The position numbers were made by a program, and so were the translations under genes. Below the pieces are notes generated by a model. It ran no database searches and had not been told where the DNA came from. It saw only the letters and a list, made by a program, of their open reading frames with translations. Of a stretch of DNA of 34,366 nucleotides, positions 9,695 to 16,482 are shown one piece after another (position 1 is the first letter of the stretch; each line of letters starts with the position of its first letter). The stretch lies in NCBI RefSeq assembly GCF_000472905.1, contig NZ_AXAR01000021.1:14423-48788 (forward strand), read 5' to 3'. The DNA comes from Alicyclobacillus pomorum DSM 14955. Its GTDB lineage: Bacteria > Bacillota > Bacilli > Alicyclobacillales > Alicyclobacillaceae.

Positions 9695-9746
9695 AGCTTG
9701 GAAATGCCATGTGCGCGTGTAGCATTGTGATGAAAGGGTGAAGGAC

Positions 9747-11132
9747 ATGCCAGAGGCAAACTTGACGCCACGTCAGATTGTGGAAGAGCTCGACAAATAT
9801 ATTGTTGGACAGAAGGCGGCCAAGCGTGCGGTTGCCATCGCGCTGCGCAACCGGATGCGGCGGGCAAAGCTGCCACCCGAGTTGCAAGAGGAAGTGACGC
9901 CGAAAAACATTTTGATGATTGGTCCGACAGGCGTCGGGAAGACGGAAATTGCACGTCGGTTGAGCAAACTGGTGGGTGCTCCGTTTTTGAAAGTGGAAGC
10001 CACGAAATTTACGGAAGTGGGCTACGTTGGACGCGACGTAGAGTCCATGGTTCGGGATTTGGTGGAGACCGCCGTGCGCATGGTGAAGGCCGAGCACGCC
10101 GAAAAAGTGAAGGCACAGGCGACGGAGCATGCAGAACAACGCATCGTCGAGGCACTGGTCCCAGATCCGAACGCGAAGAATGCCAATCGCAATCCGTTCG
10201 AGTTCCTGTTTAGCGGTGGGCAGATGGGGCGTACCGAAACTGGCCCTTCGGAGAGTGTTCGCAGCGAGCGGAAGCGGGTTGCTCATCAACTGGCCATGGG
10301 CGAGCTGGAAGATCGGCTGATTGAGGTGGATGTCGAGGAACAGCAGAGCGCCATGCTGGGATTTTTGCCTGGAATGGGTCCGGAGGGCCTCGGGAACTTA
10401 CAGGAGGCACTCGGAAACCTGTTACCGAAGCAGACGAAAAAGCGCAAAATGACGGTGCGCGAGGCGCGAAAGGTGCTGACGCAGGAGGAAGCGCAAAAGC
10501 TGATTGACATGGATGCGGTGACGGCCGAAGCAGTTCATCGCGTGGAGAACCAGGGAATCATCTTCATCGATGAGATGGATAAGATTGCAGGCCGGGAAGC
10601 CAATAGTCGCGACGTGTCCCGCGAGGGTGTACAGCGCGATATCCTTCCCATTGTCGAGGGATCAACGGTCGTGACCAAGTATGGGGCGGTCAAAACGGAC
10701 CACATTCTGTTCATTGGTGCGGGGGCGTTTCACATCGCGAAGCCGTCCGATTTGATTCCGGAGCTCCAGGGTCGCTTCCCCATTCGGGTGGAACTAGACA
10801 GCTTGACGCCGGACGATTTCGAACGCATTTTGAAAGAGCCGCAGCACGCGCTGCTCAAGCAGTACACGGCGTTGCTGGAGACGGAAGGAATCAGAGTCCG
10901 GTTTACGGACGAAGCCATACGCAAAATTGCCGAAATGGCTGAGCAGGTCAACCGGGAGACGGAAAACATCGGAGCCCGGCGCCTCCACACGCTGGTGGAA
11001 AAGGTGCTCGAGGACCTGTCGTTTGAAGCACCGGACGTGACACTCGAGGAAGTCGTGATTACTCCGGAATACGTAGACGACAAACTTAAGTCCATTGTCG
11101 TGAACAAAGACCTGAGCCGCTTTATCTTGTAG
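9747..11132 (+). CDS. hslU: ATP-dependent protease ATPase subunit HslU (ClpY)
   Basis: The AAA+ unfoldase partner of HslV. The 461-residue protein has the opening [17 protein letters not shown], Walker [15 protein letters not shown] (from about residue 60), the pore-loop region [16 protein letters not shown], an intermediate domain (about residues 110-240), Walker [12 protein letters not shown], the sensor region and the family C-terminus SRFIL that inserts into HslV. ATG 9747 is preferred over GTG 9738 because AAAGGG (9733-9738) is then eight bases upstream. A strong terminator follows at 11163-11190. In the Bacillus order codY would come next; here a truncated group II intron does. Confidence 0.96.
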
Positions 11133-11162
11133 AGCGGCATCGAGCTGAATACACCTCACCGA

Positions 11163-11196
11163 AGAGAGACGGCTGGGCAGCCGTCTCTCTTACTTA
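11163..11196 (+). terminator. Intrinsic terminator of hslU and target of the group IIC intron
   Basis: A perfect 12-bp stem, 11163-11174 with 11179-11190, loop GGGC, followed by a weak T-rich tail. The intron begins at 11198, seven bases after the stem. Class C group II introns are known to insert just behind terminator stem-loops, so this is both the end of the hslU transcript and the insertion target. The usual T run is short here, probably because the intron interrupts it. Confidence 0.9.
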
Positions 11197-11197
11197 T

Positions 11198-11822
11198 GTG
11201 CGCCCGGTATGGGTGTTGTCTATACGGTGAAAGTTCGGAATGGCGAAGGTAGCAGTAGCCATTAGCTTAAGCCAAGGGTGCCCATCGCGAGGTGGGATCT
11301 GAAGGAAGGCGGCGGCAAACCTCCGGCCCAAGGTTCACGAACTCCAATTGAGGCTAGCGACAGTTGGGCGAGTCTGCAGACCAAGACAAAGCCCTTGCTA
11401 CCGAAGGCTGTCGAGAGTAAATGGAGTGGGTATATGGAGAGAAAGACAACGCTCTTACCCGGGGAGGCCTGCCCGGAACGCCAGTAAAGCTGGTAACCGT
11501 CATCGAAAGGTGGCGCTGAACGGGTAGGAGTTAGCAGAGGTCGTAGTACCTGCAAAGGGACGCCAGAGCAGAGAAGGGCTGAACATGATTGTGAGGGTTG
11601 TTCATGGCAAGTTCGAGAGAGAAGCATAGACAGCCGAATATCCCGAAAGGGAGCTATCCTCAGGAGGAAGTGGTGAATCCACGGGGGACTGAGGAAGCGC
11701 CGAGTTTCTCTGCGGCACGACCCAACGAACCAACCCGCGAAGCGAATTGTACGAACCTGATGGAACAGGTAGTAGAGCGGGAGAACCTGCTCTCGGCCCT
11801 GCGCCGTGTGGAGAAGAACAAG
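11198..11822 (+). mobile_element. Group IIC intron, 5' fragment (domains I-III and start of the IEP), 3' end missing
   Basis: The fragment starts with GTGCGCCCGGTATGGGTG, the hallmark 5' end of class C introns. It continues with segments I recognise from the Oceanobacillus/B. halodurans-type class C ribozyme: ATCTGAAGGAAGGCGGCGGC (about 11297), CACGAACTCCAATTGAGGC, GAGAGTAAATGGAG, CTCTTACCCGGGGAGG and the domain II/III stretch TAGCAGAGGTCGTAGTACC near 11534-11552. An IEP reading frame starts at ATG 11604. Its first 73 residues, including NLMEQVVERENLLSALRRVE, are those of a group II intron maturase/reverse transcriptase just before the usual NKGAPGVDGM. At about 11814-11822 the sequence changes to flhA. 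The RT, maturase, and domains V and VI are absent, so it cannot splice or move by itself. No second piece of the element is seen in this window. Confidence 0.9.
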
Positions 11823-13841
11823 CTCGTCATTTTACTGGCGGTGCTCGGCATTATTGTGATGATGGTGATTCCGCTTCCCCCGGTTGTGCTGGACGTACTG
11901 CTGGTGATCAACTTGTTCGTTTCCATGACCGTTTTGATGGTCGCCATGAACAACACGGAGCCGTTGCAGTTTTCTGTCTTTCCGTCGCTTTTGTTGATTA
12001 CAACGTTGTATCGCCTTGCGTTGAACGTATCCTCCACGCGTCTGATTCTTTCTCAAGGTCAGGCCGGGGAAGTCATCAGTACGTTCGGAAGCTTTGTCAT
12101 CGGCAATAATCCAGTCGTTGGATTCATCATTTTCTTGATTCTCATCGTCATTCAATTTGTCGTCATCACCAAAGGTACGGAACGCGTCGCCGAAGTCGCC
12201 GCGCGCTTCACCTTGGACGCGATGCCGGGCAAACAGATTGCCATTGACGCGGACTTGAACGCCGGGTTGATCACCGAAGCAGAGGCACGGCAGCGACGTC
12301 AAGCCATTGAACGTGAAGCAGATTTCTACGGCGCGATGGACGGCGCTTCCAAGTTCGTCAAGGGAGACGCCATTGCCGCCATTCTGATTGTCGGTATTAA
12401 CATCGTTGGCGGATTCATTATCGGCATGGTGATGCAAGGGGATACCTGGCAGGACGCATTGCACAAGTACACACTGTTGTCGGTCGGTGATGGGCTCGTC
12501 AGCCAGATGCCGGCTTTGTTGCTGTCGACGGCCACGGGTCTCATGGTCACGCGCGCGGCGTTGGAAGCCAACCTCGGTTCGGACGTTGTGCGTCAGGTGT
12601 TCTCCTATCCGCGCACCTTGTTCATCGTGGCCGGTGCGATTGCGTTGCTCGGACTGTTTACACCGATTGGTATTCTGCGCACCGCTCCCATCGCCGGGCT
12701 CGCAGCGTACGCCGGATGGCGCGTTCGAAACGCGGCTGCAAAAGCACAGAACATCGAAATGGAGCAGGAAATTCGTACGAAAAAGGAGGAGACAAAAAAA
12801 ACCGAAAGCGTGTTTTCGCTCATACAGGTGGAACCTGTGGAGTTTGAATTTGGGTATGGACTCATTCCCATCGTAGACAGCAAGCAGGGTGGAGATTTCT
12901 TGGAGCGCATCGTCATGATCCGAAGACAACTCGCCCTGGAACTCGGTATGGTCATTCCCACCATTCGCATTCGTGACAACATTCAACGAAAACCGACAGA
13001 ATACGCCATGAAAATACGCGGCGTTGAAGTGGCGACTGGCGAAGTCATGCTTGGACACTGGTTGGCAATGAGCCCAGGGCCAGAAGATCCGTCTGTCACC
13101 GGCATTCCCACTACAGAGCCCGCGTTTGGCCTGCCTGCTTTGTGGGTGACAGGTGACATGAAGTTGCGCGCGGAAGCTGTGGGATATACCGTGGTGGATC
13201 CGCCTTCCGTCATTGCCACGCACTTGACAGAAGTTCTTAAGCGGCACGCGCATGAACTGCTCAGCAGACAAGACACGAAAGCACTGTTGGATCACCTACG
13301 CGAGACGGCGCCCGCAGTGGTTGAAGAGGTGGTGCCAGGGACGCTTTCCATTGGCCAAGTGCAACGTGTGCTGGCGAACCTCTTGCAGGAGAAGATCTCG
13401 ATTCGAGATCTTGTCACCATCCTGGAGACGCTTGGGGACTATGGCAAGCAGACGAAAGACCCAGACCTTCTCACCGAGTATGTCAGGCAGGCGCTCTCGC
13501 GTCAGATCTGCCATCAGTTTCGGGTACCGGGACAACCGCTGTTGGTTATCACCTTCGCACCAGCGGTCGAAGAAAAGATTCAGGGATCCTTAGTGCAGCA
13601 TGAAAACAACATGTTCATCAGCCTGGATCCGTCCACATCGCAACAGGTGTTCCGACGGTTGCGAGAAGAGTCCAGCCGATTGGCAGCGGCCGGCAAGACG
13701 CCGATTCTGCTGACACATCCGAAACTGCGTTTAGCCGTGCGTCGCTGGTTGGTGCGCTCGCTGCCGGACTTAGTAGTCCTTTCCTACAACGAAGTAGATC
13801 CCTCGGTCGACATTGAGAGTGGCGGGGTGGTGAATCTCTAA
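11604..13841 (+). CDS. flhA: FlhA flagellar export protein with N-terminus from a group II intron ORF (in-frame chimera)
   Basis: FlhA is the large membrane subunit of the flagellar type III export gate. Residues 1-73 of the 745-residue product are the start of a group II intron IEP. From residue 74 (LVILLAVLGIIVMMVIPLPP) the protein is an ordinary FlhA: about eight membrane helices in the first half, the conserved cytoplasmic FHIPEP-region segment EVAARFTLDAMPGKQIAIDA with DADLNAGLI, and a C-terminal export domain ending near VNL. Only a handful of native N-terminal residues can be missing, since FlhA normally enters its first helix almost at once. ATG 11604 has GTGAGGG at 11591-11597; TTG 11598 is an alternative. 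No native flhA promoter or ribosome site remains, and a terminator lies upstream. flhF overlaps by 1 bp. The chimera could be functional, but its expression is uncertain. Confidence 0.9.
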   Translation: MASSREKHRQPNIPKGSYPQEEVVNPRGTEEAPSFSAARPNEPTREANCTNLMEQVVERENLLSALRRVEKNKLVILLAVLGIIVMMVIPLPPVVLDVLLVINLFVSMTVLMVAMNNTEPLQFSVFPSLLLITTLYRLALNVSSTRLILSQGQAGEVISTFGSFVIGNNPVVGFIIFLILIVIQFVVITKGTERVAEVAARFTLDAMPGKQIAIDADLNAGLITEAEARQRRQAIEREADFYGAMDGASKFVKGDAIAAILIVGINIVGGFIIGMVMQGDTWQDALHKYTLLSVGDGLVSQMPALLLSTATGLMVTRAALEANLGSDVVRQVFSYPRTLFIVAGAIALLGLFTPIGILRTAPIAGLAAYAGWRVRNAAAKAQNIEMEQEIRTKKEETKKTESVFSLIQVEPVEFEFGYGLIPIVDSKQGGDFLERIVMIRRQLALELGMVIPTIRIRDNIQRKPTEYAMKIRGVEVATGEVMLGHWLAMSPGPEDPSVTGIPTTEPAFGLPALWVTGDMKLRAEAVGYTVVDPPSVIATHLTEVLKRHAHELLSRQDTKALLDHLRETAPAVVEEVVPGTLSIGQVQRVLANLLQEKISIRDLVTILETLGDYGKQTKDPDLLTEYVRQALSRQICHQFRVPGQPLLVITFAPAVEEKIQGSLVQHENNMFISLDPSTSQQVFRRLREESSRLAAAGKTPILLTHPKLRLAVRRWLVRSLPDLVVLSYNEVDPSVDIESGGVVNL

Positions 13842-14806
13842 TGATGATCCGGCGTTACATTGTAAAAGACATGCCAGAGGCTGTGGTGCACATTCGCAGA
13901 GAGCTTGGCAAGGATGCAGTGATTCTCAGCAGCAAGCGCATCACGCTCAAGAAATGGCTTGGACTGTGGCGGTACAAGCGTCTAGAAGTGGTCGCGGCAC
14001 CAGGGGTTCGTCCGCCGCTGGTACACCAGTTGATACGACAGGGGTTGAATGAAGAGCACGTGTCTCGCCTCATGGAGTCATTCACGGCGACCCGGACCCC
14101 CGTCGGTGGTGAGGGGACCGGTGAGCCGTGGACGAGCGGAAAACAACACGACCTCTTCGTGCAGCATGTCCTGCGTGACATGGAGGCGCAGGTGGAAGCG
14201 CAACCGATTGCGCCGACCTCCAGAGTGGTGGCATTGGTGGGACCGACAGGAGTCGGTAAGTCCACAACGATTGGAAAGTTGGCCGCGCTTCACGTGCTCG
14301 CGGGGAATCGGAAAGTCGGATTACTCACGACGGATACATATCGGATAGCGGCTGTCGACCAACTGGAGACGTACGCCGATATCTTGAACATTCCACTGGA
14401 GGTTGTTTACGAGACCAGCGACATTCCTGGTGCTTTGGAGCGGTTGGCGGACAGGGATTTGATCCTGTTGGATACCGCCGGTCGCAATTTTCGAGTGGAA
14501 CGGCACGTTGAAGAGCTTCGTCACTGGTTGCAACAGATCTCTGTGGATGAAACATATCTCGTGTTGGCCCTGACGAGCAAGACGGAAGATCTCGACGCGA
14601 TTGCGGCAGCCTTCGAGCGCGTTCCGGTGGACAAATTTCTGTTTACAAAATTGGACGAGACAACCACGTATGGGGCGATACTGAATCTTCTCTACTCCTA
14701 CCGCAAGCCCCTCTCATATCTGACGACCGGCCAAAATGTCCCGGATGACATTGAGGTTGCGTCTCTGGAGAAAATTCTTCGTCTCATGATTGGAGGGGCG
14801 GCTTAA
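13841..14806 (+). CDS. flhF: Flagellar SRP-like GTPase FlhF
   Basis: A GTPase of the SRP family that controls flagellar placement. The 321-residue product has a basic N-terminal B-domain region (MMIRRYIVKDMPEAVVHIRR). Its NG domain holds the P-loop GPTGVGKSTTIGKLA from Gly134, then LLTTDTYRIAAVDQLETYA, LILLDTAGRN and FTKLDETTTYGA. It is shorter than B. subtilis FlhF (about 366), mainly in the linker after the B-domain, and all GTPase motifs are intact. The ATG overlaps the flhA stop by one base, so expression depends on flhA translation; ATG 13844 is an alternative start. No sign of decay is seen despite the damaged operon context. Confidence 0.95.
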   Translation: MMIRRYIVKDMPEAVVHIRRELGKDAVILSSKRITLKKWLGLWRYKRLEVVAAPGVRPPLVHQLIRQGLNEEHVSRLMESFTATRTPVGGEGTGEPWTSGKQHDLFVQHVLRDMEAQVEAQPIAPTSRVVALVGPTGVGKSTTIGKLAALHVLAGNRKVGLLTTDTYRIAAVDQLETYADILNIPLEVVYETSDIPGALERLADRDLILLDTAGRNFRVERHVEELRHWLQQISVDETYLVLALTSKTEDLDAIAAAFERVPVDKFLFTKLDETTTYGAILNLLYSYRKPLSYLTTGQNVPDDIEVASLEKILRLMIGGAA

Positions 14807-15696
14807 TGGTGGATCAAGCGGAAAACCTGAGAGCTCTGATGTCGAAACAGAGCGTCGACGAAAGAAGAAGCCATCGGGTGGTTGCCATAGCCAGTGGTAA
14901 AGGGGGCGTTGGCAAATCGAATTTCTGCGTCAACTTCGCACTGGGACTCCAGAGGGCTGGTTACCGCCCTATCGTGATTGACGCCGACGTCGGATTTGCC
15001 GATATCGAAGTGTTGCTCGGCATTCGACCGCGCAAGAACATTGTGGACGTCATTGAAGGTCTGCCCATCTGGGAGGCCTTGGAGTATGACGCGTCGGGAC
15101 TCCCCTTCCTGTCGGCGAGCAACGGGTTGCTCAACATCCACGATTTATCCGCGGAACAAGTGGAGCGCCTCATGGAGGAACTGAAAAAGCTCCAAGACAA
15201 ATACGACATCGTACTCATTGACAGCGGGGCAGGATTGGGGCAAAACCTGATTCGTTTGTTGGCAGCTGCGGACGACCTCGTGTTGGTGACGACGCCGGAA
15301 CCTACCGCGATTGCGGACTGCTACGCCCTGTTGAAAAAGCTGGTCGCCCGGGGTGAAGTTCCATTTACACGCATGGTGGTCAATCGGGTGAAGAATTTGT
15401 CGGAAGGAAAGTTGACGGCGGACAAATTGCGAGCTGTCGCACACCGATTTCTCGACGTCGAACTCGGCGTCCTGGGCTATTTGCTGGAAGACAGTGCCGT
15501 GCAGTCGGCAGTCAAGCGACAAGAGGCGCTGTTGTCCGCGTTTCCGACCAGCCCAGCGTCTCGTTGTATTGAGCAGACGGTTCGAAATTTCATGAACAAG
15601 CAGCCCACCCATCCGAGAAAGGGCCTGGCAGGGTTTGTGGAACGTCTGTTGCGGCGTCGGCTGCCTGAGGGATTCGACTCAAGTCATACGGCGTAA
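14806..15696 (+). CDS. flhG: MinD-like ATPase FlhG (YlxH)
   Basis: A MinD/ParA-type ATPase that works with FlhF to set flagellar number and position. The 296-residue protein starts with an N-terminal helix (VDQAENLRALMSKQ), the FlhF-activating element of the family. It then has the deviant Walker A ASGKGGVGKSN (residues 29-39, Lys32 and Lys37), VIDADVGFADIEVLLG and IVLIDSGAGLGQN. The C-terminal tail is rich in Arg (ERLLRRRLPEG), fitting membrane contact. It overlaps flhF by 1 bp. In Bacillus the next genes would be cheB, cheA, cheW, cheC, cheD and sigD; none is present. Confidence 0.95.
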   Translation: MVDQAENLRALMSKQSVDERRSHRVVAIASGKGGVGKSNFCVNFALGLQRAGYRPIVIDADVGFADIEVLLGIRPRKNIVDVIEGLPIWEALEYDASGLPFLSASNGLLNIHDLSAEQVERLMEELKKLQDKYDIVLIDSGAGLGQNLIRLLAAADDLVLVTTPEPTAIADCYALLKKLVARGEVPFTRMVVNRVKNLSEGKLTADKLRAVAHRFLDVELGVLGYLLEDSAVQSAVKRQEALLSAFPTSPASRCIEQTVRNFMNKQPTHPRKGLAGFVERLLRRRLPEGFDSSHTA

Positions 15697-15903
15697 CGAT
15701 GGATTGGCAGTGTTCCCAGTCAGAGTACAGCGTCCATTTGAAGGCGGAGCGTTCTCGGATACGACGTGGTATACGTGCGGCGGTATCACCGACAACCATC
15801 AAGGCATGGGGAAGGAAGTGGAATCGGTGGACAACCTGGAGTACAGTGGAATCATACATACACTCCACTGCATTGAGTAGGGGAGCAACAGGAGGACCGC
15901 GTT
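15697..15903 (+). other. 207-bp gap where che genes and sigD are expected; no supportable gene
   Basis: This interval separates flhG from the swrB-like gene. Two short overlapping frames cross it (about 60 and 80 codons, one starting at ATG 15699 three bases after flhG and running into swrB in another frame). Neither resembles a chemotaxis protein or SigD and neither has a ribosome site. I find no recognisable remnant of cheB or sigD in any of the three forward frames. The only signal is GGAGGA at 15891-15896 serving the next gene. It may be a deletion scar. Confidence 0.5.
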
Positions 15904-16482
15904 GTGTTAACTCTCATCATCATATACGTCGTAATCATTGCCGCGGTCGTCGGTTTATATGTGGTGTCGCAGCGATTTCGTCAAGGACCGCGCCAAGGTG
16001 TTTGGCAGTGGCTAAAGTCCGGCTTCGTTGCAGGTACCGGCGTGACTGCGAGGGTGGATAGGCAAGCTACATCGACTCAACTAGGCCACCCCAATCAAGC
16101 TGCGGAAGTCATCGCTGTCTTGGAAGACATATACGAGGAGTTTCTCAGCGAAACCGCGAAGTTACGAAAGGAATTTCAGTCTCACATCGCATCGCTCGAA
16201 AGCACTTGGGAGCAGCAGTTGGACGACTTGGCGAAACAAGTGGGGCAGTTGCAGAAGAAACTGGAACTGCAGACCCGTCGTTCCGACGCTGACGAAGATG
16301 TGAGGCGCCAGCCTCGGTTCAGGGGAGAGACTTCCAGCGACATCTACTTTTCCATCCTGGATGAACTGCATGCGGGGACACCACCTGTGCAGATTGCATC
16401 GCGACTTGGAGTCAGTTTGGACGAAGTGGTGCGCGTACGCAAGATGATGGAATCTCCTGGACTCGAGGAAGAACCACATTGA
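15904..16482 (+). CDS. SwrB/YlxL-like protein (DUF6115 type), membrane-anchored
   Basis: In Bacillus the gene between sigD and rpsB is swrB, which promotes assembly of the flagellar export apparatus. This 192-residue product has that position and design. It has an N-terminal membrane helix (about residues 2-21, LTLIIIYVVIIAAVVGLYVV), a variable linker, and a coiled coil at about residues 70-125 (EEFLSETAKLRKEFQSHI). The C-terminal helix-turn-helix-like segment is DIYFSILDELHAGTPPVQIA followed by SRLGVSLDEVVRVRKMM. GTG 15904 lies seven bases after GGAGGA. Sequence similarity to SwrB itself is low in my reading, so the call rests on architecture and synteny. It survives although sigD and the che genes are gone from its left side. 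Confidence 0.75.
   Translation: MLTLIIIYVVIIAAVVGLYVVSQRFRQGPRQGVWQWLKSGFVAGTGVTARVDRQATSTQLGHPNQAAEVIAVLEDIYEEFLSETAKLRKEFQSHIASLESTWEQQLDDLAKQVGQLQKKLELQTRRSDADEDVRRQPRFRGETSSDIYFSILDELHAGTPPVQIASRLGVSLDEVVRVRKMMESPGLEEEPH

Follow-up and report, generated by a model that had tools for sequence, protein, structure and literature searches.

Group IIC (class C) introns are reported to insert after intrinsic terminators (PMC4424553, PMC3898094), and truncated copies are described as forming the majority in bacteria (PMC4424553). In Photobacterium damselae subsp. piscicida, mobile elements are reported to be associated with a broken flagellar cluster (PMC9317898). Escherichia albertii is reported to have lost chemotaxis genes selectively while retaining flagellar genes (PMC4700944), and Alicyclobacillus acidocaldarius to be non-motile despite the presence of flagellar genes (PMC3035248). 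The locus analyzed here, within a window of 34,366 nt from Alicyclobacillus pomorum DSM 14955 (genome G000; all coordinates are positions in this window and all features lie on the plus strand), shares with group IIC introns the 5′ RNA, the N-terminus of the intron-encoded protein (IEP) and the place behind a hairpin, in this case the one after hslU, but a deletion reaching in frame into a host gene has apparently removed the 3′ part of the element. As in the account of P. damselae, a flagellar cluster is broken in connection with a mobile element; whereas insertion sequences are reported to interrupt genes in that bacterium, a group II intron forms one end of a large deletion in the window, where an open fusion frame remains. 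In the open-licence literature searched, no in-frame fusion of an intron protein with flhA was found described. Since truncated group II introns, insertion of IIC elements at terminators and breakage of flagellar clusters are all known, the locus is a new instance of such an accident.

The upstream neighbour of the element, hslU (9738–11132), is an open frame named from its translation and occupies the same place in the sister species (G001, L011:9457–10866). It is followed by a 13-pair terminator-like hairpin predicted by folding (11162–11191; folding z-score of −3.25 for 11155–11210), the likely target of the intron, which ends six bases before the intron 5′ end at position 11198. This hairpin was absent from the list of a consensus terminator scan because its T-run is weak. 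A hairpin is also found between hslU and flgB in G001.

The 5′ part of a group IIC-type intron RNA, starting with GTGCGCCCGG, extends from 11198 to 11603. Rfam matches to RF02001 (11281–11453, 127.5 bits) and RF01998 (11494–11579, 52.5 bits) showed that group II RNA domains 1 to 3 are present, and this RNA aligns along its length with introns at six loci of the same family (L142–L147), whose upstream sequences resemble hairpins by eye. These results bear out the claim of an earlier note, made from the letters alone, that a group IIC-type intron stands behind the hairpin following hslU; class C is the probable assignment, taken from the insertion site and the RNA type. No match to domain V (RF00029) was obtained in 10900–14000 at E values up to 1. 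As a control, the same model matched two of three intact relatives, L142 and L143, but neither L144 nor a second copy of the element on contig C18 of the same genome, so that the Rfam miss alone is weak; it is the DNA after 11822, which is flhA, that leaves the window copy without domains V and VI. Likewise, the IEP stops at codon 73, without reverse transcriptase and maturase. The element is thus a fragment of a group IIC-type intron and not a working intron.

Dating of the fragment by intron decay was attempted and rejected, given that the window RNA carries 14 unique changes at 298 positions invariant in the six relatives and the intact L142 carries 13 at 297 by the same measure. All 14 window-specific changes in 11198–11603 are transitions, a pattern that would be expected from preservation of the stems by G-U pairing. 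A contrast between IEP part and RNA was also considered as a sign of selection (1/141 versus 14/298 changes with six relatives; Fisher p = 0.045), but it was dropped when the comparison with three relatives gave 5/187 versus 19/342 (p = 0.19).

The first 73 codons of the IEP occupy positions 11604–11822, with a GTGAGGG motif before the ATG. The copy on C18 is identical to the window at 215 of 219 bases up to the junction, including all of the last 79 bases; past that point it continues with GAAGVDGM and a group II reverse transcriptase, and its frame scores as group_II_RT_mat (TIGR04416). Residues 1–74 alone gave no Pfam or NCBIfam match at E values up to 1. By comparison with the C18 copy and with IEPs of relatives, which have the same N-terminus (in one of them, of 473 aa, the reverse transcriptase match starts at residue 60), the 73 residues are assigned to the IEP, and the junction falls inside it, as the earlier note had proposed. 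The C18 copy itself (L004:5579–7190) is 5′-truncated, without the intron 5′ part, and its reverse transcriptase frame is interrupted by a TGA; by eye, the 3′ end of this copy resembles domains V and VI, which Rfam did not list. In the family search an IEP match was present in 24 of 41 genomes, and G001 had neither an IEP match nor an intron match.

From the IEP codons the frame runs without a stop into flhA, so the in-frame IEP-FlhA chimera that had been read from the letters is real in the sequence. A single open frame extends from 11598/11604 to 13841, encoding 745 aa from the ATG at 11604, and its flhA part (11823–13841) comprises about native codon 6 to the stop. The product matches TIGR01398 with 867 bits (cut-off 772; residues 72–743 covered) and PF00771 (FHIPEP) with 903.6 bits over positions 1–656 of 657, a score inside the range of the relatives. 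Compared with FlhA of the same family, the protein is alike throughout from about residue 6, whereas the first residues are replaced by the 73 IEP residues and the genome lacks FliP and a full FlhB. Among 18 relatives of the same family, the usual native start reads M/V-K-R-S/T-D, with D (17 relatives) or E (one) before the aligned leucine, while the chimera reads V-E-K-N-K, encoded by bases that belong to the intron protein; in a check of these 18 relatives, none had a native FlhA in which LVILLAV is preceded by the residues of the chimera. Since IEP bases stand in the place of the native ones, the ribosome-binding site of flhA has most likely gone, together with the start codon and about four further codons. 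For the same reason, the suggestion that recombination took place at a short AAGAACAAG homology finds no support: these bases belong to the IEP, and the corresponding residues in family relatives are KR[ST]D or similar. Such a homology would keep an unsupported chance, as the native flhA start of this species is lost. Two other candidates were noted in these comparisons. A Paenibacillus validus match spanning query residues 1–745 (L031) was rejected as a parallel fusion, having stops upstream of its FlhA, and L123 (contig C51 of G018) holds an FlhA frame with one internal TAA and an FHIPEP score of 832.7 bits, below those of the other full-length matches.

Comparison with G001 revealed a larger change. 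Its gene order is xerC-hslV-hslU-flgB-flgC-fliE-fliF-fliG ... fliP ... flhB-flhA-flhF-flhG-cheA-cheW-cheC-cheD-(swrB-like)-rpsB (names read from translations, except FlhA and FliP, which are family matches), the hslU stop and the first flhA start being separated by 17,084 bp that include flgB to flhB. In the window the FlhA part follows the hslU stop after only 690 bp, and the flgB-flhB block is missing. The earlier note was right that the 3′ part of the intron is gone, but it missed the flgB-flhB deletion and so understated the loss, which also covers about 17 kb of flagellar genes.

Of the flagellar and chemotaxis families, FliP, FliG_C, flagellin, MCP and FlhB were covered by a whole-genome search. 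No match was found in the own genome to FliP, FliG_C, flagellin or the MCP signalling domain, and FlhB is represented only by profile positions 262–335 of 335 in a frame of 121 aa. This FlhB C-terminal-like frame is located on contig C14 (12664–12882) of the same genome, about 12 kb upstream of the junction. Of the export gate partners of FlhA that were searched, FliP is therefore missing and FlhB is C-terminal only. Across 59 genomes of the order, FHIPEP was found in 54 and FliP in 51; FHIPEP without FliP occurred in three, namely the own genome and two incomplete genomes (65 and 81%) in which the FHIPEP match is partial. When the count is restricted to the 45 good genomes (completeness of 90% or more, contamination of 5% or less), the own genome is the only case. 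One further genome, G052 (100% complete, 6% contamination), has neither FHIPEP nor FliP, which reads as a separate flagellar loss in the same family. The bacterium appears to have lost its flagella, flhA-flhF-flhG most likely being remnants of the lost system.

Downstream of the chimera, flhF (13841–14806, open, 321 aa) and flhG (14806–15696, open, 296 aa) had tblastn matches in 14 and 12, respectively, of the 14 relatives' regions compared. Their frames overlap by one base, flhA/flhF at 13841 and flhF/flhG at 14806. FlhF and FlhG had been said to depend on the chimera through these overlaps, which do exist; the dependence is largely moot, because the genome is without the flagellar and chemotaxis families searched. 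Beyond flhG, the distance to rpsB is 957 bp compared to 4615 bp in G001, and the flhG-rpsB spacing together with blastn points to a scar of a second deletion at 15697–15903, whose counterpart in G001 is cheA-cheW-cheC-cheD. The best blastn match of 15680–15960 in 14 relatives had E = 0.061. Within the scar, GTGGACAACCTGGAGTAC (VDNLEY) may represent the opening codons of cheA; the sequence after it is unrelated.

Taken together, these data suggest the following course of events, to which we assign a probability of roughly 0.8. In a flagellated ancestor, a group IIC-type retroelement would have inserted downstream of the hslU hairpin, as indicated by the site and by G001, and a deletion would then have joined IEP codon 73 to about flhA codon 6, taking the rest of the intron and some 17 kb of flagellar genes; the gene loss is shown by the comparison with G001, and we infer that it happened in a single step. 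Aborted reverse transcription removes the 5′ part of an intron and not the 3′ part. The window intron, with its 5′ end kept and its 3′ end missing, is the reverse of such a product, and hence the deletion came after the insertion. A second deletion would have taken cheA-cheD, a loss likewise shown by G001. The mRNA, if made, would start with dead intron RNA and would be translated from the IEP start into a protein of 745 aa. Without FliP, FliG, flagellin and a full-length FlhB the chimeric FlhA cannot serve a flagellum, and flhA, flhF and flhG would thus most likely be recent leftovers. An in-frame join would be expected by chance in one in three such joins, and we regard the case as a neat accident whose in-frame join is unusual, not as a new system.

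The join itself could be doubted, since the junction is exactly where the match to the C18 copy stops, and the two intron copies would be indistinguishable in reads that do not cross the whole 79-base identical stretch; the copies might have been mis-joined, or a chimeric read might have linked flhA to the intron. We consider such an assembly artefact very improbable, given that even a swap of copies requires IEP sequence before flhA, that hslU and flhA lie in the G001 order on one contig, and that the flagellar genes searched are missing from the whole of an assembly rated 100% complete. Accepting the join, it is conceivable that FlhA, if made, starts at the in-frame GTG at 11808 and is not a fusion protein. 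This codon sits in a column that holds M, V or L (ATG, GTG or TTG) in 17 of the 18 family relatives, and its use would give a near-native length of 677 aa. No ribosome-binding motif stands close before it, although many native genes show GGGGGTGA-like motifs by eye, while GTGAGGG precedes the IEP ATG. The latter thus looks the stronger start, which makes use of the element's translation start, as proposed in the earlier note, plausible and initiation at the GTG unlikely.

A different reading would have the fusion gene expressed and selected, with FlhA, FlhF and FlhG keeping a non-flagellar job, for instance in membrane or cell-pole organisation, and with the intron having supplied a new start and a leader by domestication of the IEP N-terminus through gene fusion. 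In agreement with this, no stop occurs in the 1289 codons of the three frames (neutral probability of 0.05 at 2.5% divergence), and the FlhA branch lengths since the split from G001 (own versus G001) were 0.080 versus 0.109, a ratio of 0.73 that equals those of Dxr and PolC. The corresponding lengths were 0.288 versus 0.230 for FlhF and 0.292 versus 0.314 for FlhG. At sites invariant in the relatives (G005, G013 and G018 excluded), own-only versus G001-only changes amounted to 9 versus 7 for the trio, near the 11 versus 10 of eight control genes. FlhA alone, however, showed 8 versus 3 (FlhF, 1 versus 3; FlhG, 0 versus 1), and the summed branch ratio of the trio was 0.96 compared to 0.73 for the controls (0.80 without cdsA), a slight relative speed-up inside the spread of single genes, as the control ratios ranged from 0.49 to 1.73. 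Trees comprised 15 taxa for flhA and flhF, 13 for flhG and most controls, and 12 for polC; swrB was left out of them, and rpsB, with almost no changes, was set aside from control sums, ratios and invariant-site counts. No pairwise dS against G001 could be computed for flhA, flhF and flhG, and the values of the controls were saturated. Moreover, the promoter scan found no promoter-like site in 11050–11900, among the good genomes of the order FlhA without FliP is confined to this one, and a recent loss accounts equally well for the intact frames. Retention under selection therefore seems improbable to us. The open frames and an FlhA that is not faster than in G001, unlike in old relics, imply that the loss is recent or that the three genes are still constrained. 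Counting against a recent loss, MCP and flagellin genes, which are located elsewhere in most genomes, are also wholly gone.

Selection on the trio, if present, would suggest that FlhA, FlhF and FlhG have a role outside the flagellum. As recent relics, which is the reading we favour, the three genes carry a warning for annotation: an intact-looking flhA-flhF-flhG need not mean a flagellum. With the sister species as reference, the locus indicates how a group IIC element lying behind a housekeeping gene can come to mark one end of a deletion, which in this case would have removed most of a flagellar operon.
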